A DNA stretch of 64,000 bases from a virus, in the IMG/VR virus record IMGVR_UViG_3300042430_002694, positions 207,161 through 271,160 of that record; one strand, given 5' to 3'. The position numbers and the translations under genes were made by a program. The notes below the pieces were generated by a model. That model was given only the letters and a program-made list of their open reading frames with translations, searched no databases and was not told the origin of the DNA. Positions within the stretch are counted from its first letter, which is position 1. Every line of letters begins with the position of its first letter. Below are positions 4,560-29,742 of this stretch, one piece after another.

Positions 4560-5111
4560 ATGAAACTTAAGAGATTTTCACAATTTGTAAAAGAGAGCTT
4601 GATAACAGAATCTTCGTCAGTTATTGAAGTTGAAGAAAATATATTCTTAATAGACGAAATAATCTACATAATTTGGCTTGTTACACTAGACGTATCTTTC
4701 GATTATGAGCCTGACGATAGCAGTGTCGGATTCGTTGGCGGCTATTCAGTTGATGATGTTGACTTTGATGGAGTAGACGGAGTGTATAAAGTAACTGATC
4801 CTTCAGTAATTTCGCAGGTTAAAGCCATGCTAGATTCCCCTGAAGCTGAAGAGTTAAAAAGCATGGGATTTGAAGGAGCTGATGAATATGCAGCAATTGG
4901 CGATTTAATATACGATGCAGAGCAAGAAGAAATTACAGGAGAAGAGCTCAAGGACTTCATTAATAAATTCAAAGCTCTTTACGATTCAAATACTCTAGTC
5001 GATTTAACTGGTACTTTCAAAAAAAGAACTGACTCTGCTCTCGATAGAGCGGTTGAGGATTTTGAACCTGATGAGCCTGACTACGATGATTACGACGATG
5101 ATCGTTATTAA
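4560..5111 (+). CDS. Acidic protein with capsid-targeting-like N-terminus
   Basis: A 183-residue, strongly acidic protein. The first residues (MKLKRFSQFVKESLITE) match the pattern of the T4 internal-protein capsid-targeting sequence (MKTYQEFIAEA), followed by possible I/L-x-E prohead-protease sites. Around residues 95-115 it has EELKSMGFEGADEYAAIGDL, a module also seen in the proteins at 27298, 60235 and 62345. The C-terminus is an Asp/Tyr-rich tail. It follows a late promoter. The best guess is a protein packaged in the head. The targeting role is inferred from motif and promoter type. Confidence 0.6.
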   Translation: MKLKRFSQFVKESLITESSSVIEVEENIFLIDEIIYIIWLVTLDVSFDYEPDDSSVGFVGGYSVDDVDFDGVDGVYKVTDPSVISQVKAMLDSPEAEELKSMGFEGADEYAAIGDLIYDAEQEEITGEELKDFINKFKALYDSNTLVDLTGTFKKRTDSALDRAVEDFEPDEPDYDDYDDDRY

Positions 5112-5736: not shown

Positions 5737-5742
5737 TATAAT
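5737..5742 (+). promoter_or_regulatory. Early-type promoter for tRNA array 1
   Basis: TTGGTATAATAAC lies 35 bases before the leader ORF at 5778 and is the only obvious TATAAT-type promoter before the leader, terminator and first four tRNAs. Confidence 0.6.
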
Positions 5743-5777: not shown

Positions 5778-5909
5778 GTGCAAATAACTACGAACATATC
5801 AAAAAATACTCAAAACTGGAATCAGTATCCGGCAGGCACAGTTAATGTGATTGCAATGGAGACGATTAAAGATTTTGGGGTATTGCGAGGTTCTAGTGGT
5901 ATAAGTTAA
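5778..5909 (+). CDS. 43-codon putative attenuator leader peptide of tRNA array 1
   Basis: A GTG-started ORF of 43 codons between the array promoter and an intrinsic terminator. Its first 35 residues include every amino acid served by the tRNAs of the following array (F, K, I, M, W, Q, D, E, A, T, G, V, P, N, Y), one Ser, and no Leu, Arg, Cys or His. Leu, Arg and most Ser occur only after residue 35. Codons 37-39 (CGAGGTTC, 5886-5893) can pair with GAACCTCG at 5933-5940, the 5' half of the terminator. This is the layout of an amino-acid attenuator. No Shine-Dalgarno is visible and the start codon is uncertain. Translation has not been shown. Confidence 0.55.
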   Translation: MQITTNISKNTQNWNQYPAGTVNVIAMETIKDFGVLRGSSGIS

Positions 5910-5964
5910 GAAATTACATAACTAACAACAACGAACCTCGAACCTAAAAAATTCGAGGTTTTTT
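5886..5964 (+). promoter_or_regulatory. Attenuator: antiterminator segment plus terminator of array 1
   Basis: Terminator: AACCTCGAA (5934-5942) with TTCGAGGTT (5952-5960), then T-rich sequence. Competing antiterminator: CGAGGTTC (5886-5893), inside the leader ORF, with GAACCTCG (5933-5940), 8 bp. The two helices exclude each other. A ribosome at the leader stop codon would mask the upstream segment and favour termination. A ribosome stalled earlier would leave it free. Confidence 0.6.
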
Positions 5965-5974
5965 GTTTTAGCAT

Positions 5975-6050
5975 GGTGAGGTAGCTCAGATGGTAGAGCA
6001 CAGGACTGAAAATCCTGGTGTCGGCGGTTCGATCCCGCCCCTCACCACCA
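5975..6050 (+). tRNA. tRNA-Phe(GAA), CCA encoded
   Basis: Acceptor GGTGAGG/CCTCACC, anticodon loop CTGAAAA, T-loop TTCGATC, encoded CCA. First tRNA after the attenuator. Confidence 0.96.
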
Positions 6051-6128
6051 ACAAAAAAATGAATAAGAATATGAAACGTAAACGCTAAAGGCCCAGTGAC
6101 TCCCAGAGTTACAGGTCTAAATACACAG

Positions 6129-6202
6129 GTCTTCGTAGCTCAGTTGGTTAGAGCACCTCACTTTTAATGAGGGAGTCACAGGTTCGAGTCCTGTCGGGGA
6201 CA
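6129..6202 (+). tRNA. tRNA-Lys(UUU), CCA not encoded
   Basis: Acceptor GTCTTCG/CGGGGAC with G-T pairs, anticodon loop CTTTTAA, T-loop TTCGAGT. It is followed by ACTA, so the CCA end must be added. Confidence 0.95.
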
Positions 6203-6208
6203 CTAAAC

Positions 6209-6285
6209 TGGAATATAGCTCAATTGGTTAGAGCATTCGCCTGATACGCGAAAGGTTATAGGTTCGATTCCTATTATTCCAACCA
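6209..6285 (+). tRNA. tRNA-Ile(GAU), CCA encoded
   Basis: Acceptor TGGAATA/TATTCCA, anticodon loop CTGATAC, T-loop TTCGATT, discriminator A and CCA. Confidence 0.95.
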
Positions 6286-6290
6286 AACAT

Positions 6291-6368
6291 TGCGGGATGC
6301 GTAGAAAGCGGTTATCTCGTCAGTCTCATAAGCTGAAGTTCCCGGTTCGAGTCCGGGTCCCGCAACCA
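6291..6368 (+). tRNA. tRNA with CAU anticodon (Met, or lysidine-type Ile), CCA encoded
   Basis: Acceptor TGCGGGA/TCCCGCA, anticodon loop CTCATAA, T-loop TTCGAGT, CCA. The D-arm (CGTAGAAAGCGGTTATCTCG) is unusual. As the array has three CAU tRNAs, this or the one at 8859 could be the AUA-reading Ile type, which sequence alone does not settle. Confidence 0.88.
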
Positions 6369-6377
6369 AAAGAATAC

Positions 6378-6448
6378 ACGGATGTGGTGCAATGGTAGCA
6401 TGCGGGTCTCCAAAACCCTAGATGGGAGTTCGAATCTCTCCGACCGTG
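6378..6448 (+). tRNA. tRNA-Trp(CCA anticodon)
   Basis: Anticodon loop CTCCAAA. Acceptor ACGGATG/CGACCGT has one A-A mismatch. T-loop TTCGAAT, discriminator G, 3' CCA not encoded. Confidence 0.9.
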
Positions 6449-6490
6449 CAAATCTTTCGAAAGAAAGTGACTAAATTAAACCTAATGTGG

Positions 6491-6496
6491 TATAGT
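6491..6496 (+). promoter_or_regulatory. Possible internal promoter, TATAGT core
   Basis: TGGTATAGTAATC lies 50 bases before tRNA-Gln in a spacer without other function. It resembles the TATAGT before the gene at 9017 and could transcribe the rest of the array independently of the attenuator. Confidence 0.4.
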
Positions 6497-6545
6497 AATC
6501 ATATAAGTTTAACAAGAGTTCTTTGACTTATTGGAGATTGAAAAT

Positions 6546-6616
6546 TGTCCTGTGGTGTAATGGCAGCACGTCTGGTTTTGGTCCAGAAGATCGAGGTTCG
6601 AATCCTTGCGGGACAA
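6546..6616 (+). tRNA. tRNA-Gln(UUG)
   Basis: Acceptor TGTCCTG/CGGGACA, anticodon loop TTTTGGT, T-loop TTCGAAT, no encoded CCA. Confidence 0.94.
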
Positions 6617-6621
6617 CATAT

Positions 6622-6693
<72 letters not shown>

Positions 6694-6698
6694 CTAAT

Positions 6699-6804
6699 GA
6701 TTAGATGGGCGTAATGCGGGATGGTACCCAAGTCCCGAACTCGAAAGAGGTAAGGTTGTCTACTCCGTCTTGCACGGTATCCGGTTCGAGTCCGGCTCTA
6801 ATCA
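6699..6804 (+). other. tRNA-like element with unresolved anticodon arm
   Basis: Perfect 7-bp acceptor GATTAGA (6699-6705) with TCTAATC (6797-6803), discriminator A, a T-arm CCGG-TTCGAGT-CCGG, but about 106 nt long. Between them are CGGGA/TCCCG and CCGT/ACGG stems, and I cannot place a normal D-arm plus anticodon loop. It may be a class II tRNA with an insertion, or a tRNA mimic processed at its ends. Confidence 0.5.
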
Positions 6805-6807
6805 CCC

Positions 6808-6864
6808 GGATCCATGCACGTCGAGCGCAAACCAATCGCTCTTCAGGTAGATTTGCATGGATAA
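6808..6864 (+). ncRNA. Structured tRNA-spacer RNA (hairpin element)
   Basis: ATCCATGCA (6810-6818) pairs with TGCATGGAT (6854-6862), 9 bp. An inner GAGCG/CGCTC stem lies at 6823-6841. A further TACCC/GGGTA hairpin follows near 6880-6893. No ORF fits the region. Confidence 0.5.
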
Positions 6865-6913
6865 ACAACCCGTCACGGTATACCCACAGGGTAGGAGTGA
6901 ACTGGAGAGAAAT

Positions 6914-6985
6914 GGTCCTGTAGTTAATCGGCTATAACGCCGCCCTGTCACGGCGGTATGCCGGGTTCGATTCCCGGTGGGACCG
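6914..6985 (+). tRNA. tRNA-Asp(GUC)
   Basis: Acceptor GGTCCTG/TGGGACC, anticodon loop CTGTCAC, T-loop TTCGATT, discriminator G, no encoded CCA. Confidence 0.95.
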
Positions 6986-6987
6986 CG

Positions 6988-7169
6988 AAAGTATATCAAC
7001 AGAAGTCCGACTTGCACGGATGAAAGGAACCTTGGCTCCATGGGATTAGCTACCCAACCGGAGAGATATAAATGACCCAAGGTACTCTGTTCAGGTCCCT
7101 GCTCTACTGTGCACAGTATCAGGTTATGGGGAACAAACCATAAGTAAAAACCGGAGCACGGTATACTTT
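6988..7169 (+). ncRNA. Structured RNA between tRNA-Asp and tRNA-Glu
   Basis: A closing helix AAAGTATA (6988-6995)/TATACTTT (7162-7169) brackets several stems: ACCTTGG (7029-7035)/CCAAGGT (7077-7083), with CTCC/GGAG and GGG/CCC inside it, TACTG/CAGTA at 7105-7118, and TTATGG (7124-7129)/CCATAA (7138-7143). The closing helix would bring the two flanking tRNAs together. No family recognised. Confidence 0.55.
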
Positions 7170-7174
7170 TATTT

Positions 7175-7246
7175 GGCCCGTTAGTCTATCGGTTAGGACA
7201 CGCCCCTTTCACGGGTGAGAGACGAGTTCGATTCTCGTACGGGCTA
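7175..7246 (+). tRNA. tRNA-Glu(UUC)
   Basis: Acceptor GGCCCGT/ACGGGCT, anticodon loop CTTTCAC, T-loop TTCGATT, no encoded CCA. Confidence 0.95.
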
Positions 7247-7248
7247 CT

Positions 7249-7388
7249 AAGAACAACGGTCTCTCCGGCCAATGTGATGTCGACAATCACGGTCGGATCA
7301 AGAGTTCACCACCCTCAGCCTGGGCCCAGAGAAAACTCTGATGAAGCTGTTAAGATTGGAGCGAGACGGGTACTCCAACGTTGTTCTT
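7249..7388 (+). ncRNA. Multibranched structured RNA between tRNA-Glu and tRNA-Ala
   Basis: Closing helix AAGAACAACG (7249-7258)/CGTTGTTCTT (7379-7388), 10 bp, exactly filling the spacer. Inside: TCCGGCC/GGTCGGA (7264-7270/7291-7297) capped by GTGAT/ATCAC with a 7-nt loop, AGAGTT/AACTCT (7301-7306/7334-7339), and TTGGAG/CTCCAA (7356-7361/7373-7378). This is a clear junction-type fold. No known RNA family is recognised. Confidence 0.65.
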
Positions 7389-7392
7389 AAAT

Positions 7393-7469
7393 GGGCTGTT
7401 AGCTCAGTTGGCTAGAGCACCGCACTTGCACTGCGGGGGTCGAGAGTTCGAGTCTCTCACGGTCCACCA
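7393..7469 (+). tRNA. tRNA-Ala(UGC), CCA encoded
   Basis: Acceptor GGGCTGT/ACGGTCC, anticodon loop CTTGCAC, T-loop TTCGAGT, CCA. Confidence 0.95.
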
Positions 7470-7474
7470 ACATT

Positions 7475-7548
7475 GCCTCCTTAGCTCAGTTGGCCAGAGC
7501 GCCTCACTTGTAATGAGGATGTCGGCGGTTCGAATCCGTCAGGAGGCT
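7475..7548 (+). tRNA. tRNA-Thr(UGU)
   Basis: Acceptor GCCTCCT/AGGAGGC, anticodon loop CTTGTAA, T-loop TTCGAAT, discriminator T, no encoded CCA. Confidence 0.95.
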
Positions 7549-7552
7549 CACA

Positions 7553-7718
7553 TCGTATTAGGGTCGTGCCGCATTTTGCCACGATACGAAATAGACTTGA
7601 GAGGATCAGAGGCGGCCGTGACTACCTCAAGTCGAAGTTAGATAGTGTCTCGGTACGCTCTGGTTAGTCGCAAGACTTTCTAACGACGAGGTCCCGGTGG
7701 GCAGAACGCGTCTGATCC
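7553..7718 (+). ncRNA. Structured RNA with possible pseudoknot between tRNA-Thr and tRNA-Gly
   Basis: Stems: TCGTAT/ATACGA (7553-7558/7584-7589), GACTTGAG/CTCAAGTC (7594-7601/7626-7633), GTTAGA/TCTAAC (7637-7642/7679-7684) holding AGTC-GCAA-GACT (7666-7677), a GNRA-capped hairpin. GGATCAGA (7603-7610), in the loop of the second stem, is complementary over 8 bp to TCTGATCC (7711-7718), giving a long-range pseudoknot. Confidence 0.6.
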
Positions 7719-7727
7719 CACCCACTT

Positions 7728-7803
7728 GCGGGAGTAGCTCAGTTGGTAGAGCGCAACCTTGCCAAGGTTGAGGTCGCCGGTTCGAACCCGGCCTCCCGCT
7801 CCA
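7728..7803 (+). tRNA. tRNA-Gly(GCC), CCA encoded
   Basis: Acceptor GCGGGAG/CTCCCGC, anticodon loop TTGCCAA, T-loop TTCGAAC, discriminator T, CCA. Confidence 0.96.
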
Positions 7804-7806
7804 TAA

Positions 7807-7879
7807 GCGGATGTCGTATAATGGCTTATTACTCCAGCCTTCCAAGCTGGAGATGCGAGTTCGATTCTCGCCATCCGCT
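7807..7879 (+). tRNA. tRNA-Gly(UCC)
   Basis: Acceptor GCGGATG/CATCCGC, anticodon loop CTTCCAA, T-loop TTCGATT, no encoded CCA. Confidence 0.95.
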
Positions 7880-7884
7880 CGACC

Positions 7885-7956
7885 GGTGGCTCCCTTAATG
7901 GTTCGAGGCCGACCTCAAACATCGGTGATACGTCATACAGGGGGCGAAAGCGTATC
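7885..7956 (+). ncRNA. Short structured spacer between tRNA-Gly and tRNA-Val
   Basis: Contains GAGG-CCGA-CCTC (7905-7916) and GATACG/CGTATC (7927-7932/7951-7956). Less convincing than the neighbouring spacers. Confidence 0.35.
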
Positions 7957-7960
7957 AAAC

Positions 7961-8033
7961 AGTCCTTTAGCTCAGTTGGTAGAGCATCTGTTTTACATGC
8001 AGAGGGTCGTAGGTTCGAATCCTACAGGGACTA
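7961..8033 (+). tRNA. tRNA-Val(UAC)
   Basis: Acceptor AGTCCTT/AGGGACT, anticodon loop TTTACAT, T-loop TTCGAAT, no encoded CCA. Confidence 0.94.
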
Positions 8034-8035
8034 CT

Positions 8036-8131
8036 ATGAGCAAGAGATACTCAGTAAGATTGGTCGCATTCTTTAAAAAAGCGATGGTAGTGAAAAAGTC
8101 CTCGACCTTAATGGGGGATCGATTCGGGTAA
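8036..8131 (+). CDS. Possible 31-codon basic peptide in a tRNA spacer
   Basis: An ATG-started ORF of 31 codons, very basic (RLVAFFKKAMVVKKSS), fills the first third of the 289-base spacer between tRNA-Val and tRNA-Pro. No promoter or terminator is tied to it. It may be chance. Confidence 0.2.
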   Translation: MSKRYSVRLVAFFKKAMVVKKSSTLMGDRFG

Positions 8132-8322
8132 ACGTGAGCAAGACTCTGCCGCGCCGACGTAGAGAGTTGACAGGTTTTTATGTGGTAAGACACTAATGAA
8201 AAAGACTTATTGGGGGAGGACCGTATAGTCTAAGACGTCAATAAGGGATATGGTTCTCGAAACAGTCAGAGAAACCCGTTAAAATCCAGTCTTCGTACAA
8301 GTCTCAGTATGGAGCAAATTAT
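8132..8322 (+). ncRNA. Structured spacer RNA with H-type pseudoknot before tRNA-Pro
   Basis: CTTATTG (8206-8212) pairs with CAATAAG (8239-8245), while GAGGACCGTAT (8216-8226) pairs with ATATGGTTCTC (8248-8258), 11 bp with two G-U pairs. The order A-B-A'-B' defines a pseudoknot. A weaker ACTCT/AGAGT stem lies near 8142-8167. Confidence 0.5.
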
Positions 8323-8399
8323 CGAGATGTTGGGGAGTCCGGTTACCCCGCCTGCTTTGGGAGCAGGAGAACTCGCAGGTTCGAATCCTGCCATCTCGA
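8323..8399 (+). tRNA. tRNA-Pro(UGG)
   Basis: Acceptor CGAGATG/CATCTCG, anticodon loop TTTGGGA, T-loop TTCGAAT, no encoded CCA. Confidence 0.95.
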
Positions 8400-8400
8400 C

Positions 8401-8501
8401 AAAAGAACCTTAGTAGAGGCTGACTCCACCAGCTAGGACGTAACGTTCAAGCCTAGCTGAAAGCACGCGCTTGCGCTGAAATGGTGGTCGAGGTTCTTTT
8501 A
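8401..8501 (+). ncRNA. Structured RNA between tRNA-Pro and tRNA-Asn
   Basis: Closing helix AAAAGAACCT (8401-8410)/AGGTTCTTTT (8491-8500) begins two bases after tRNA-Pro and ends eight before tRNA-Asn. Inside: CCACCA/TGGTGG (8426-8431/8482-8487), AGCTAGG/CCTAGCT (8431-8437/8452-8458, sharing a base with the former) and a small GC hairpin. The T-rich 3' end could also terminate transcription, but tRNA genes continue in the same direction. Confidence 0.6.
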
Positions 8502-8507
8502 TTTTAT

Positions 8508-8582
8508 TGGGTGTTAGCTCAGCGGTAGAGCTCTCGACTGTTAATCGAGTGGTCCCAGGTTCGAATCCTGGACACCCAGCCA
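8508..8582 (+). tRNA. tRNA-Asn(GUU), CCA encoded
   Basis: Acceptor TGGGTGT/ACACCCA, anticodon loop CTGTTAA, T-loop TTCGAAT, discriminator G, CCA. Confidence 0.95.
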
Positions 8583-8585
8583 AGG

Positions 8586-8714
8586 TTGATTAGGGAATGA
8601 TTGTGTCAATAGTTCGAGAGTGAATGCTGACTGACATAATCGGAGTTTGCAGGCATTCACCAGAGTAATGCTAATCGTAAAATGAGATGTCCACTGAACC
8701 ATCTTCTCATTTCC
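8586..8714 (+). ncRNA. Structured RNA with pseudoknot between tRNA-Asn and tRNA-Tyr
   Basis: Outer helix GATTAG/CTAATC (8588-8593/8671-8676). Inside, GATTGTGTCA (8599-8608) with TGACATAATC (8632-8641) interlocks with GTGAATGC (8620-8627)/GCATTCAC (8653-8660), an A-B-A'-B' pseudoknot. A separate hairpin AAATGAGA/TCTCATTT follows (8680-8687/8705-8712). Confidence 0.6.
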
Positions 8715-8720
8715 TTACCT

Positions 8721-8807
8721 GCCGTAGCGCTGAAGTTGGAGAGTCAGGACAGACTGTAAATCTGTTGTCGTAAGGCTGAGTAGGTTCGAATCCTACCTGC
8801 GGCACCA
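8721..8807 (+). tRNA. tRNA-Tyr(GUA), CCA encoded
   Basis: Acceptor GCCGTAG/CTGCGGC, anticodon loop CTGTAAA, class II variable arm, T-loop TTCGAAT, CCA. Confidence 0.95.
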
Positions 8808-8858
8808 AGTAGTTTTGAGGTGGGCGAATTCTACTCTAAAAAAATAATCCCTCCACCA

Positions 8859-8932
8859 GGACCTTTAGCTCAGTTGGTTAGAGCAGCGCACTCATAATGC
8901 GAAGGTCTCAGGTTCGAGCCCTGAATGGTCCA
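8859..8932 (+). tRNA. tRNA with CAU anticodon (elongator Met or Ile type)
   Basis: Acceptor GGACCTT/ATGGTCC with one T-T mismatch, anticodon loop CTCATAA, T-loop TTCGAGC, no encoded CCA. Last tRNA of array 1. Confidence 0.9.
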
Positions 8933-8985
8933 CAAATTTTTTAGATTTTTTATCATCCGATTAAACCTAAATCGATTTTTAATAG

Positions 8986-23069: not shown

Positions 23070-23190
23070 AGTCAGGTGGCGGAATTGGTAGACGCTATGT
23101 GGTGCGGAACTCGCTTCGTTCACCACTCCCTTAGCGGGGAAAACAAAGGTAAGAGATGTGACCATGCAGGTTCGAATCCTGTCCTGACTA
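23070..23190 (+). other. Leu-type tRNA-like element with an inserted hairpin region
   Basis: Acceptor AGTCAGG/CCTGACT, Leu-type D-arm GCGGAATTGGTAGACGC and T-arm GCAGG-TTCGAAT-CCTGT are intact, but the element is 121 nt long. The middle has GTGGTG/CACCAC (23099-23126) and TCCC/GGGA stems instead of a readable anticodon arm. It may be an insertion in the anticodon region, or a tRNA-derived structural RNA. Confidence 0.55.
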
Positions 23191-28654: not shown

Positions 28655-28660
28655 TATATT
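28655..28660 (+). promoter_or_regulatory. Early-type promoter of tRNA array 2 leader
   Basis: GTAGTATATT, six bases, then the leader ATG at 28667; a leaderless leader-peptide mRNA is predicted. Confidence 0.65.
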
Positions 28661-28666
28661 ATTAAC

Positions 28667-28738
28667 ATGAAAACATTATCCTTACATTCACTTTGTTTAC
28701 GTTCGTTGAGATTAAGTCTCGATGTGTCTAGGCCGTGA
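28667..28738 (+). CDS. 23-codon putative attenuator leader peptide of tRNA array 2
   Basis: An ATG-started ORF of 23 codons directly after a promoter. Seventeen of its 23 residues are Leu (7), Ser (5), Arg (3), His and Cys, exactly the five amino acids carried by the tRNAs that follow (Cys, Ser, His, Leu, Leu, Ser, Arg, Arg). The five Ser codons are all different (TCC, TCA, TCG, AGT, TCT), the three Arg codons are different, and four Leu codons are sampled. Its last codons and stop overlap the antiterminator segment. This strongly suggests a tRNA-sensing leader. Translation is not demonstrated. Confidence 0.7.
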   Translation: MKTLSLHSLCLRSLRLSLDVSRP

Positions 28739-28796
28739 TGTAAGATAAGAAAACTTCTACTGAAAAGGCTTAGACTAACGTTTAAGCCTTTTTTGT
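28704..28796 (+). promoter_or_regulatory. Attenuator of tRNA array 2: pause hairpin, antiterminator, terminator
   Basis: Three competing helices: CGTTGAGA (28704-28711)/TCTCGATG (28717-28724) within the leader; GTCTAGGCC (28726-28734), over the last codons, with GGCTTAGAC (28767-28775), 9 bp with one G-U; and the terminator AAAAGGCTTA (28763-28772)/TAAGCCTTTT (28783-28792) followed by T-rich sequence. The antiterminator and terminator share 28767-28772, so they exclude each other. Confidence 0.65.
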
Positions 28797-28800
28797 TTTT

Positions 28801-28870
28801 GGTCAGTTTGGTCGTGGAGGCCGTCAGGTCTGCAAAATCTGAGGAGTTGGTTCGATTCCAACATTGACCT
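28801..28870 (+). tRNA. tRNA-Cys(GCA)
   Basis: Acceptor GGTCAGT/ATTGACC, anticodon loop CTGCAAA, T-loop TTCGATT, discriminator T, no encoded CCA. Directly after the attenuator. Confidence 0.93.
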
Positions 28871-28878
28871 CAAAAACT

Positions 28879-28962
28879 GGAAGAGTAATTCAGCTGGCGC
28901 TGGACCTAGTCTTGAAAACTAGTGGTACCTTCGGGTATGGGGATCGATACCTCACTCTTCCG
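28879..28962 (+). tRNA. tRNA-Ser(UGA), second copy, unusual T-loop
   Basis: Acceptor GGAAGAG/CTCTTCC, anticodon loop CTTGAAA, variable arm, but T-loop ATCGATA instead of TTCGA-type. Same anticodon as the tRNA at 3276. Confidence 0.9.
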
Positions 28963-28977
28963 CTCGTTCTTTTACAT

Positions 28978-29055
28978 GGTAGACGTAGCTCAGTTGGTTA
29001 GAGCGCCTGATTGTGGTTCAGGAGGTCGTCGGTTCGATCCCGATCGTTTACCCCA
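28978..29055 (+). tRNA. tRNA-His(GUG), CCA encoded
   Basis: Acceptor GTAGACG/CGTTTAC with the extra G-1 (28978) opposite C73 (29052) required for histidyl identity, anticodon loop TTGTGGT, T-loop TTCGATC, CCA. Confidence 0.94.
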
Positions 29056-29058
29056 ACT

Positions 29059-29134
29059 GCCTCTGTGGGTAAACTGGTAAAGCCGCTTGACTTAGGATCA
29101 AGAGATTTTGTGGGTTCGAATCCCACCAGAGGTA
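29059..29134 (+). tRNA. tRNA-Leu(UAG)
   Basis: Acceptor GCCTCTG/CAGAGGT, anticodon loop CTTAGGA, short variable arm, T-loop TTCGAAT, no encoded CCA. Confidence 0.92.
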
Positions 29135-29141
29135 CAAAAAT

Positions 29142-29222
29142 GCTCCCGTGGTGAAACTGGTAAACACGCTCGGCTTAAGATCGAGTGCGCAATGCTTGTG
29201 GGTTCGAGTCCCACCGGGAGTA
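29142..29222 (+). tRNA. tRNA-Leu(UAA)
   Basis: Acceptor GCTCCCG/CGGGAGT, anticodon loop CTTAAGA, T-loop TTCGAGT, no encoded CCA. Confidence 0.94.
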
Positions 29223-29227
29223 CTAAT

Positions 29228-29315
29228 GGAGAGTGAAGCAACAAGGTGTTGTCGCCGCCTGCTAAGCGAGCGGTTCCCGAAAGGGAATGGGGATCGAGAC
29301 CTCCACTCTCCGCCA
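29228..29315 (+). tRNA. tRNA-Ser(GCU), CCA encoded, unusual T-loop
   Basis: Acceptor GGAGAGT/ACTCTCC, anticodon loop CTGCTAA on a weak stem, variable arm TTCCCGAAAGGGAA, T-loop ATCGAGA, discriminator G, CCA. Confidence 0.9.
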
Positions 29316-29316
29316 T

Positions 29317-29390
29317 AGTCCAGTAGCTCAGTGGAATAGAGCAACCGCCTTCTAAGCGGTAGGTCGCAGGTTCGAGTCCTGCCTGGATTA
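29317..29390 (+). tRNA. tRNA-Arg(UCU)
   Basis: Acceptor AGTCCAG/CTGGATT, anticodon loop CTTCTAA, T-loop TTCGAGT, no encoded CCA. Confidence 0.94.
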
Positions 29391-29402
29391 CAAATTATTT
29401 AG

Positions 29403-29408
29403 TACAAT
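29403..29408 (+). promoter_or_regulatory. Early-type promoter giving a predicted leaderless mRNA
   Basis: AGTACAAT, six bases, then the ATG at 29415. Confidence 0.55.
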
Positions 29409-29414
29409 ATAGCT

Positions 29415-29645
29415 ATGGAAGAAATAACAAACGCAGAAAGAGAATTCATGTTCTATAAGATTGGAACAGCTGGATCGTTTCACACAGCCTTGATTCAGAC
29501 AATTATGAAGGCTGATATTCGTAATCAGGCTAAGCTTGCACTAGGTTTTCCCGAAGATGTTCAAGTGGTTCAACGTTTTCAAAACGAAAGTGGCTACTGG
29601 GAAGGTCTGCAAGAGCGCTGGAAAGCTGCACATAACCGAAACTAA
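29415..29645 (+). CDS. Small phage protein of unknown function
   Basis: A 76-residue helical protein (FHTALIQTIMKADIRNQAKLALG, VQRFQNESGYWEGLQERW). It lies between two Arg tRNAs with its own promoter. The sequence style is common among small hypothetical phage proteins near nucleotide-metabolism genes. No function assigned. Confidence 0.55.
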   Translation: MEEITNAEREFMFYKIGTAGSFHTALIQTIMKADIRNQAKLALGFPEDVQVVQRFQNESGYWEGLQERWKAAHNRN

Positions 29646-29654
29646 TTAGTACCT

Positions 29655-29727
29655 GCCCCGGTAGTTCAATGGATCAGAACACACGGCTACGGACCGTGAG
29701 ATGGGGGTTCGAATCCCTCCTGGGGTA
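29655..29727 (+). tRNA. tRNA-Arg(ACG)
   Basis: Acceptor GCCCCGG/CTGGGGT, anticodon loop CTACGGA, T-loop TTCGAAT. A34 would need deamination to inosine by the host enzyme TadA. Confidence 0.93.
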
Positions 29728-29742
29728 CTTAACTTAATCAAC

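Follow-up and report, generated by a model that had tools for sequence, protein, structure and literature searches.

The tRNA gene clusters of a broad group of phages are in many cases preceded by a short ORF whose amino acids match those of the tRNAs that follow, with an intrinsic terminator lying between the two. We consider it very probable (roughly 0.88) that these clusters, together with synthetase operons, are governed by ribosome-mediated transcription attenuation in which each operon senses its own products. The ORFs, the terminators, the match in composition and the complementary helices, along with their conservation, are established at the level of sequence, and translation of the leaders, ribosome stalling and a change in read-through are inferred, as there are no expression data.

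One such site had been noted in a preliminary description of the window, a 64,000-nucleotide stretch of a 271-kb phage record. That observation is confirmed and proves to be larger than was seen at the time: a second leader in the window (leader 1), the division of the genetic code between the two leaders and the synthetase leaders of a relative were all absent from it. The attenuation reading put forward there is supported by a leader composition that tracks the clusters and by an alternative helix that is kept, although behaviour as a switch remains an inference.

The two leaders of the window

The site described previously is that of leader 2 (Table 1). The 23-codon ORF that had been claimed is present at 28667-28738 as MKTLSLHSLCLRSLRLSLDVSRP, and 17 of its 23 residues (L7 S5 R3 H1 C1) are Leu, Ser, Arg, His or Cys, as reported. 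Reading the window in six frames gives 546 ORFs of 20-40 aa, for which the mean fraction of these residues is 0.37, and only leader 2 itself reaches this value; for the background, quoted as roughly a quarter, the figure in plus-strand window ORFs of at least 120 aa is 0.216. A chance origin of the composition is ruled out by the small-ORF count of 1/546 together with the permutations given below. The five Ser and three Arg codons are all different, as had been stated, but we reject synonymous-codon diversity as evidence, because a raised spread across synonymous codons is seen for non-cognate residues too. By inspection, leader 2 has a codon-box match for each of the eight cluster tRNAs (TTA, CTT, TCC, AGT, CGT, AGA, CAT and TGT).

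The promoter proposed for this transcript is visible only as a -10-like TATATT that is absent from the promoter-scan list. The stretch 28655-28660 is nearly the same in five of six aligned sequences (the window counted), and reads GGTATAATAGTTACATG in L115. Since the start codon follows only about 7 nt later, the leader 2 transcript may be leaderless. A hairpin inside the ORF, a candidate for region 1:2, stays in the homologues as judged by eye, with a different register in L099 and L103. The terminator claimed ahead of the tRNAs was located at 28762-28793, and cluster 2 (28801-29728) carries tRNAs for Cys, Ser, His, Leu and Arg. ARAGORN called the Cys, His, two Leu and Arg genes of the earlier list, and the two Ser genes that it missed are supported by their homologues in both L106 and L109, where the calls are Ser(TGA) and Ser(GCT); tRNA-Arg(ACG) is a further cluster 2 gene that the list did not contain.

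Table 1. Features of the two leader regions of the window (positions are those of the window).
Feature	Position	Strand	Remarks
-10-like TATAAT, leader 1 transcript	5737..5742	+	read from sequence, no functional test
Leader 1 ORF	5778..5909	+	VQITTNISKNTQNWNQYPAGTVNVIAMETIKDFGVLRGSSGIS, GTG start, 43 codons
Antiterminator 5' strand, leader 1	5886..5893	+	CGAGGTTC, inside last codons
Intrinsic terminator 1	5934..5965 (core 5936-5958)	+	5' arm common to antiterminator
tRNA cluster 1	5975..8933	+	ARAGORN: Phe Lys Ile Met Trp Gln Met Asp Glu Ala Thr Gly Gly Val Pro Asn Tyr Met
-10-like TATATT	28655..28660	+	sequence; start codon ~7 nt further on
Leader 2 ORF	28667..28738	+	MKTLSLHSLCLRSLRLSLDVSRP, 23 codons
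Hairpin inside leader 2, candidate region 1:2	28704..28724	+	CGTTGAGA/TCTCGATG, predicted fold
Antiterminator 5' strand, leader 2	28726..28734	+	GTCTAGGCC, last codons; p 0.013
Intrinsic terminator 2	28762..28793	+	terminator prediction and fold
tRNA-Cys(GCA)	28801..28871	+	ARAGORN
tRNA-Ser(TGA)	28879..28961	+	missed by ARAGORN; marginal Rfam tRNA-Sec match, 47.9 bits (cut-off 47)
tRNA-His(GTG)	28979..29055	+	ARAGORN
tRNA-Leu(TAG)	29059..29135	+	ARAGORN
tRNA-Leu(TAA)	29142..29223	+	ARAGORN
tRNA-Ser(GCT)	29228..29312	+	missed by ARAGORN, read by eye
tRNA-Arg(TCT)	29317..29391	+	ARAGORN
tRNA-Arg(ACG)	29655..29728	+	ARAGORN; after 76-aa ORF (29415-29645)

Leader 1 stands ahead of cluster 1, whose amino acids are precisely the 15 for which cluster 2 has no tRNA, and it contains all 15 of them. 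Cys, Ser, His, Leu and Arg together account for just one of the first 34 residues after its start, and its last eight codons include Leu, Arg and at least two Ser; within these codons CGAGGTTC is complementary to GAACCTCG in the 5' arm of terminator 1. Taken together, the contents of the two leaders mean that the code is shared 15 + 5 between leaders, just as it is between clusters. A similar -10-like box lies upstream of those leader 1 homologues whose sequence was read.

Some further features of the window are recorded here as observations. TATAAT-like boxes lie just ~7-14 nt ahead of start codons at 28655-28667 and near 2764, 23384 and 29403, so that some mRNAs of the phage may be leaderless or nearly so. 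The cluster 1 spacers 6700-6910, 6987-7170, 7250-7390, 7550-7725 and 8035-8320 are long, look structured by eye and are unexplained, and one stretch, 6704-6806, has tRNA-like ends. The region 23070-23190 (genome 230230-230350), missed by ARAGORN, resembles a tRNA (Rfam tRNA, 34.5 bits) with an insert of unusual length, for which a large variable arm or an intron may account. ORFs at 4560, 5138, 26714, 27298 and 29995 share a starting motif like MKLKRFTQFVNEA, which we take to resemble the capsid-targeting N-terminus of T4 internal proteins.

Leader composition in related phages

A portal scan, of which the best 80 of 106 loci were followed, led to 24 longer contigs, 12 of them with tRNAs; a tRNA was present in three of 24 further portal-related contigs, and the same scan of bacterial and archaeal genomes did not find a relative. 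Leader 2 homologues precede a Cys-His-Leu-Arg cluster in G002, G003, G011, G012 and G013. A DNA pattern of the leader 2 start matched ten stretches in the viral collection, namely four identical to the window, these five genomes and L129, all of them in contigs whose leader was read. The protein encoded just after cluster 2, used as a query, matched four loci, at 100% identity. Between the window and G002, leader 2 shows seven synonymous and no nonsynonymous changes ahead of the last four codons and none and three, respectively, in the tail, as would be expected were translation the first constraint and pairing the second. Five Ser residues remain in the leader of G012 and four in that of G013, yet ARAGORN finds no tRNA-Ser in either cluster.

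Homologues of leader 1 occur at 13 loci (L140-L152) and in L098 and L102, and a search of 12 contigs with the peptide gave one match. Seven distinct variants hold 15/15, 11/12, 14/14, 10/10, 10/11, 13/13 and 15/15 of their cluster amino acids, the start Met being excluded; the centre, NWNQYPAGT, is unchanged in all seven, and elsewhere the set of residues is kept as their order drifts, with dN/dS near 1 for distant pairs. In G018 (69% portal identity) a single merged cluster for 17 amino acids lies behind MQTQMNHIIENCFSQVAYAKWTGNDRDLGFRS, which holds all 17, lacks Pro and has one Leu close to its end. Loss of the composition in relatives had been named as grounds for refutation; the composition is kept, and it shifts when the content of the cluster shifts. 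The leader is gone in G004, where the terminator stays with some tRNAs, and this is, as far as sequence can tell, a natural loss of the putative switch. At this site (L110, reversed locus, around position 2343) ARAGORN finds cluster 1 reduced to five tRNAs, and the promoter-like box is kept.

In five huge-phage records (W01-W05, that is LR756500, LR756504, LR756502, LR756501 and LR745206; 462-735 kb, 33-42% portal identity) the tRNAs are sorted into several clusters, and many leaders match. We presume, as a guess, that these records come from the work of Al-Shayeb et al. (2020). Gln-only, Leu-only, Lys-only and Arg-Ser clusters have leaders rich in Gln, Leu, Lys and Arg/Ser: MTTSFQQQQQQQINRTD, with its run of seven Gln (QQQQQQQ), precedes a cluster of four tRNA-Gln and MTTTQQIQQQQINQTD a cluster of three, MRTILIIKKKKRDAIPIKIE precedes three tRNA-Lys, MNNILHINLLNSLCLLGIKLIG, which uses all six Leu codons, five tRNA-Leu, and MKTINNTSKSSSRSSSMSEIRLYS, with the run SSSRSSS, an Arg-Ser cluster. 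Mixed clusters are preceded by mixed leaders, with MKTVNTNIAIVEIAVIGGAEEGVMGVYCLNSKTS before Glu-Ala-Ile-Val-Gly-Glu (in short, IAIVEIAVIGGAEEGV before Glu-Ala-Ile-Val-Gly), MKTIAMIIRMRIIRPKMLG before Arg-Ile-Met and MKAISVHIIHIWEHLLEEVNINIM before His-Glu-Val-Trp. At the extreme, the cluster of G037 covers 20 amino acids, with Gly just before the leader and the other 19 after it, and its leader MQLHGCTYWILSNVEKNFPQADSITPSPGRS contains all 20 in 31 residues (start Met counted), as do only 24 of 200,000 random 31-mers of window protein composition. In L256 (G037) and L257 (G026) the region ahead of the first tRNA resembles, by eye, a tmRNA gene (GGGGGTGACC start).

An earlier set of 20 leaders had been hand-picked by eye, and the tests reported here used a fixed rule instead. 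The rule took each terminator with a tRNA no more than 400 nt on and the longest small ORF with its stop inside the 65 nt before that terminator, starting at the first ATG or otherwise the first GTG. Across 65 sources it gave 43 sites, 40 of them with an ORF and three without; dropping ten rows in which the leader is homologous to one of the two in the window left 30 non-redundant leader/cluster pairs. Their summed z of 95.7 was reached by none of 100,000 free permutations (mean 0.2, sd 8.1) and by none of 100,000 permutations within genomes (mean 6.5, sd 11.8), and the leaders contained 114 of 123 cluster amino acids vs 90.1 (sd 4.7) within genomes. z was at least 2 for 21 of the 30 pairs, with a mean of 3.19 (sd 1.84), vs 0.04 (sd 1.18) for 15 control ORFs obtained from 34 terminators without a tRNA. 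The 30-pair figures keep the rule's mistakes: window leader 1 is trimmed to an internal ATG (METIKDFGVLRGSSGIS), giving the lowest z (-0.53), and window cluster 2 lacks its Ser genes. Low values were also returned for G037 (-0.33), where almost every amino acid is represented in the cluster, and for the Gln site of L386 (-0.10), where the ORF taken is by eye the wrong one; in L102 the rule took the wrong frame. L127 and L267 are in no count.

For replication, a DNA pattern from His-Lys-Phe-Trp leaders (49 matching stretches, 21 terminator-to-tRNA sites) provided five long records, from which 20 stretches yielded 30 sites, 27 with an ORF and three without; exclusion of the five sites found via the pattern left 22 pairs. 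Their summed z was 48.0, vs a within-genome mean of 2.0 (sd 7.6; 0/50,000), the leaders covered 66 of 67 cluster amino acids, and z was at least 2 in 9/22. As the five genomes fall within the broad group of W03 and W05, with some homologous leaders, new clusters were tested here and not a new lineage. Kinship of the phages as the sole cause of the match is ruled out by the within-genome permutations (0/100,000 and 0/50,000). The whole record of W05, read as 32 stretches, has 153 terminators outside tRNAs, 64 of which follow a small ORF. Seven are followed by a tRNA, all seven with an ORF; five of these leaders beat all 57 other ORFs and the remaining two are reached by four and seven of the 57, and of the 59 tRNA entries in the record 50 lie in the clusters behind these seven leaders. 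At the level of codons the agreement is imperfect: where a cluster has just one of two codon boxes, the leader codons agree with it by 18 vs 6.

Some of the 57 tRNA-less ORFs of W05 (635 kb) precede synthetase genes. The valyl-tRNA synthetase gene is preceded by MKTINLNNLVVVNVSV, with all four Val codons, the isoleucyl gene by MNFNTIIIIRYSIPWSIPIG, the leucyl gene by MINNNVNILLLPLT (169 nt from terminator to ORF), the aspartyl gene, for which the best model is aspartate--tRNA(Asn) ligase, by MKNIRLNDDRFLLTNCKADW, and an asparaginyl-tRNA synthetase gene followed by an arginyl-tRNA ligase-like gene by MKTMTINNRNRLTDII. The Ile, Asn and Asp proteins reach a curated NCBIfam cut-off, whereas those for Val (443 aa) and Leu (422 aa) and the Arg-like one (392 aa, E 3e-10) stay below. 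These leaders were spotted by eye among the 57 ORFs, so their composition match is post hoc; their duplexes give p values of 0.008 (Val), 0.086 (Ile), 0.019 (Asn-Arg), 0.010 (Asp) and 0.010 (Leu), and an aspartyl leader of W03 gives 0.016. A LysRS-like gene (below cut-off) follows the Lys tRNAs and KKKK leader of W02, and a LeuRS gene lies ~0.8 kb downstream of the Leu cluster of W04. In the stretches read, no such leader was found at the PF00133 genes of W02 and W05 (MetRS by look only) or at the PF00152 protein of W04. Upstream of a HisRS-like protein (211 aa in L323, W05; a similar one in L322, W03) there is a terminator preceded by MRALHTYKITIDLG and MKTLHTYKNVIDWM, respectively, and the link of these putative leaders to His is suggestive only.

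Matched leaders were not found everywhere. Seven records outside the group, T4 included, with one tRNA-bearing stretch each, had none; their only terminator-to-tRNA site has as its ORF the annotated gene 115 of phage Atuin, which does not match, and one of these controls (L273) has bacterial-looking genes (argJ, nadA). On this small sample, and as far as was searched, the design is confined to one broad phage group. No leader was found in the stretches examined of the Sphingomonas phage PAU tRNA cluster or of the clusters in L153 and L165, nor in Lak-B4 and Lak-A1 (table 11 only) or G017, where L263 and L121 each have one terminator-to-tRNA site without an ORF. PTm1 gave no tRNA match.

Alternative helices and a proposed switch

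The pairing proposed for leader 2 can form: GTCTAGGCC (28726-28734) is able to pair with GGCTTAGAC (28767-28775) through nine pairs, one of them G-U. In the predicted fold of 28667-28800 the terminator forms, and in that of 28690-28785, without the first codons and with most of the terminator 3' arm absent, the antiterminator forms. Across the six sequences of the leader 2 family the antiterminator has 52 of 54 cells paired, and two of its nine pairs differ at both partners. Slid controls, paired at no more than 55.6%, and shuffled controls lend support to the predicted leader 2 helix, but on one measure, the number of pairs altered at both partners, 185 of 500 shuffles do as well. For leader 1 the antiterminator, tested on the rule-shortened ORF, has p 0.10; it is kept in all seven family members read, and in L145 both partners of one pair are changed. 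Examination of the helix in relatives, suggested as a check in the preliminary description, reveals paired changes that keep it and its recurrence across non-homologous leaders.

More generally, 32 leaders (two of which, L164 and L167, were added by eye) were compared with dinucleotide shuffles, and pairing between the leader tail and the terminator 5' arm is better than in the shuffles for 23 of them at p<=0.05 and for 14 at p<=0.01; in the replication set the counts are 15/22 and 9/22. This leaves 9/32 and 7/22 that fail at 0.05. Cognate residues make up 301 of 580 positions ahead of the pairing stretch vs 58 of 257 in or after it, a count for which window leader 1 was given back its GTG start, and window cluster 2 its Ser genes, by hand; in replication the figures are 188/428 vs 24/199. 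Regulatory codons upstream, followed by a tail dictated by RNA pairing, are what a stall sensor needs.

According to the model that we propose, RNA polymerase would start upstream of the leader, with a ribosome translating it right behind. If all of the tRNAs that the leader calls for are charged and available, the ribosome would reach the last codons and cover the antiterminator strand, allowing the terminator hairpin to form and transcription to end ahead of the tRNAs. Should any one of them be short, the ribosome would stall upstream in the leader, the last codons would pair with the terminator 5' arm, no terminator would form and the whole cluster would be transcribed. With the tRNAs themselves as its products, such a switch would amount to a direct feedback loop and to an OR-gate over the codons of the cluster. 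The signal would be a lack of charged tRNA, whether through demand, loss of host tRNAs or shortage of amino acids, and synthetase genes appear to be wired likewise in at least one related phage (W05).

It is formally possible that the leaders encode ordinary small proteins, each with its own function, whose composition matches the clusters incidentally. The conservation of leaders 1 and 2 across phages, including the invariant NWNQYPAGT of all seven leader 1 variants, would suit such proteins. However, composition follows the cluster across unrelated leaders, homopolymer-like stretches such as QQQQQQQ, KKKK, SSSRSSS and VVVNV are unlikely as proteins, the order of leader 1 drifts while its residue set stays, and most leaders have a tail complementary to the terminator, all of which makes this explanation extremely improbable. 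The terminators and ORFs could alternatively be real without any ribosome stalling, as a plain intergenic terminator with a promoter-proximal ORF that protects the RNA, or as a signal for tRNA-precursor processing. G004, with its terminator and some tRNAs but no leader, indicates that the parts can exist apart, as this would allow, but neither the amino acid match nor the antiterminator would be predicted, nor would the thinning of cognate codons where the pairing stretch begins, and we regard it as very unlikely. Finally, the loop might act at another step, with stalled ribosomes exposing an RNA site for a phage factor (an antitermination protein or RNase) in place of a simple hairpin switch. 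The nine of 32 leaders without a duplex that beats shuffles at 0.05 could be accommodated in this way; a factor alone, however, would require neither the duplexes that do beat shuffles in 23/32 and 15/22 nor the paired changes that keep them, which leaves it highly improbable.

If attenuation by stalled ribosomes does operate, it bears on the standing question of why phages carry tRNAs, and whether these are for constant use or on demand. A leader that names its tRNAs would permit prediction, from DNA alone, of what each cluster responds to, and the leaders are natural candidates for attenuators that read up to 20 amino acids. In some huge phages, the findings suggest, the supply of the translation machinery is regulated through an entire set of such switches. 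A broader interpretation, which we offer tentatively and hold at somewhat short of even odds, is that the leaders together form a codon-resolved supply monitor over the genetic code, with tRNA operons, and synthetase operons too, tested by their own leaders, such that the loss of any tRNA, for example to host anticodon nucleases in defence, would switch on the replacement set. In such a monitor the code of the window would be split 15 + 5 over two leaders, and the 31-residue peptide of G037 would test all 20 amino acids.

Comparison with known attenuators

Huge phages carry many tRNAs and synthetases (Al-Shayeb et al., 2020), and the text of that paper (PMC7162821), supplements aside, mentions tRNA 37 times and contains no 'leader', 'attenuat' or 'terminator'. 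We found no report in the open full-text literature, judged by titles and the starts of abstracts and with most subscription papers and preprints outside its scope, of attenuation of phage tRNA genes with leaders of 15 to 20 amino acids. Attenuation itself is known, and what appears to be undescribed, no report having been found, is the proposed choice of tRNA genes as targets, the occurrence in phages and the leaders that would read 15 to 20 amino acids. In the window, Rfam leader families stay below cut-off (Thr_leader, 25.9 bits over 5901-5967, cut-off 55, E 0.0055; Phe_leader, 16.1 over 28741-28796, cut-off 55), and T-box is absent both from the 27 matches at gathering score and, for the two leader regions, from the matches up to E 5.

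Attenuation by leader peptides is a textbook mechanism. The trp, his, leu, thr and ilv attenuators of enteric bacteria are leader peptides of amino acid operons, and the known ones read one to three amino acids. The phage sites share with them a short leader ORF enriched in regulatory codons, here those of the amino acids to which the genes downstream relate, an intrinsic terminator between leader and structural genes, and an antiterminator that overlaps the leader end and competes for the same terminator strand. The further criterion of a biosynthetic operon, that the regulated genes make the amino acid, is not met, the next genes downstream being tRNAs.

Among cellular systems, the pheST attenuator of E. 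coli places a Phe leader ahead of the phenylalanyl-tRNA synthetase genes. With a gene of the charging machinery under leader-peptide attenuation, it stands closest to the synthetase leaders of W05. Unlike pheST, which is cellular and concerns one amino acid, a single phage has separate leaders for ValRS, IleRS, LeuRS, AspRS and AsnRS-ArgRS, the last of which combines two amino acids. T-box riboswitches are the tRNA-sensing leaders of Gram-positive synthetase operons, and bind tRNA directly without translation. They resemble the switch proposed for the phage leaders in that uncharged tRNA is sensed and termination controlled, often at synthetases, but the phage leaders would sense through translation. 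The amino acid operon attenuators differ in what is regulated, since in the phages it would be tRNA genes (and synthetases in a relative) and the molecule sensed would be the product itself, and in their reach, with up to 20 amino acids to be read by a phage leader as against one to three.
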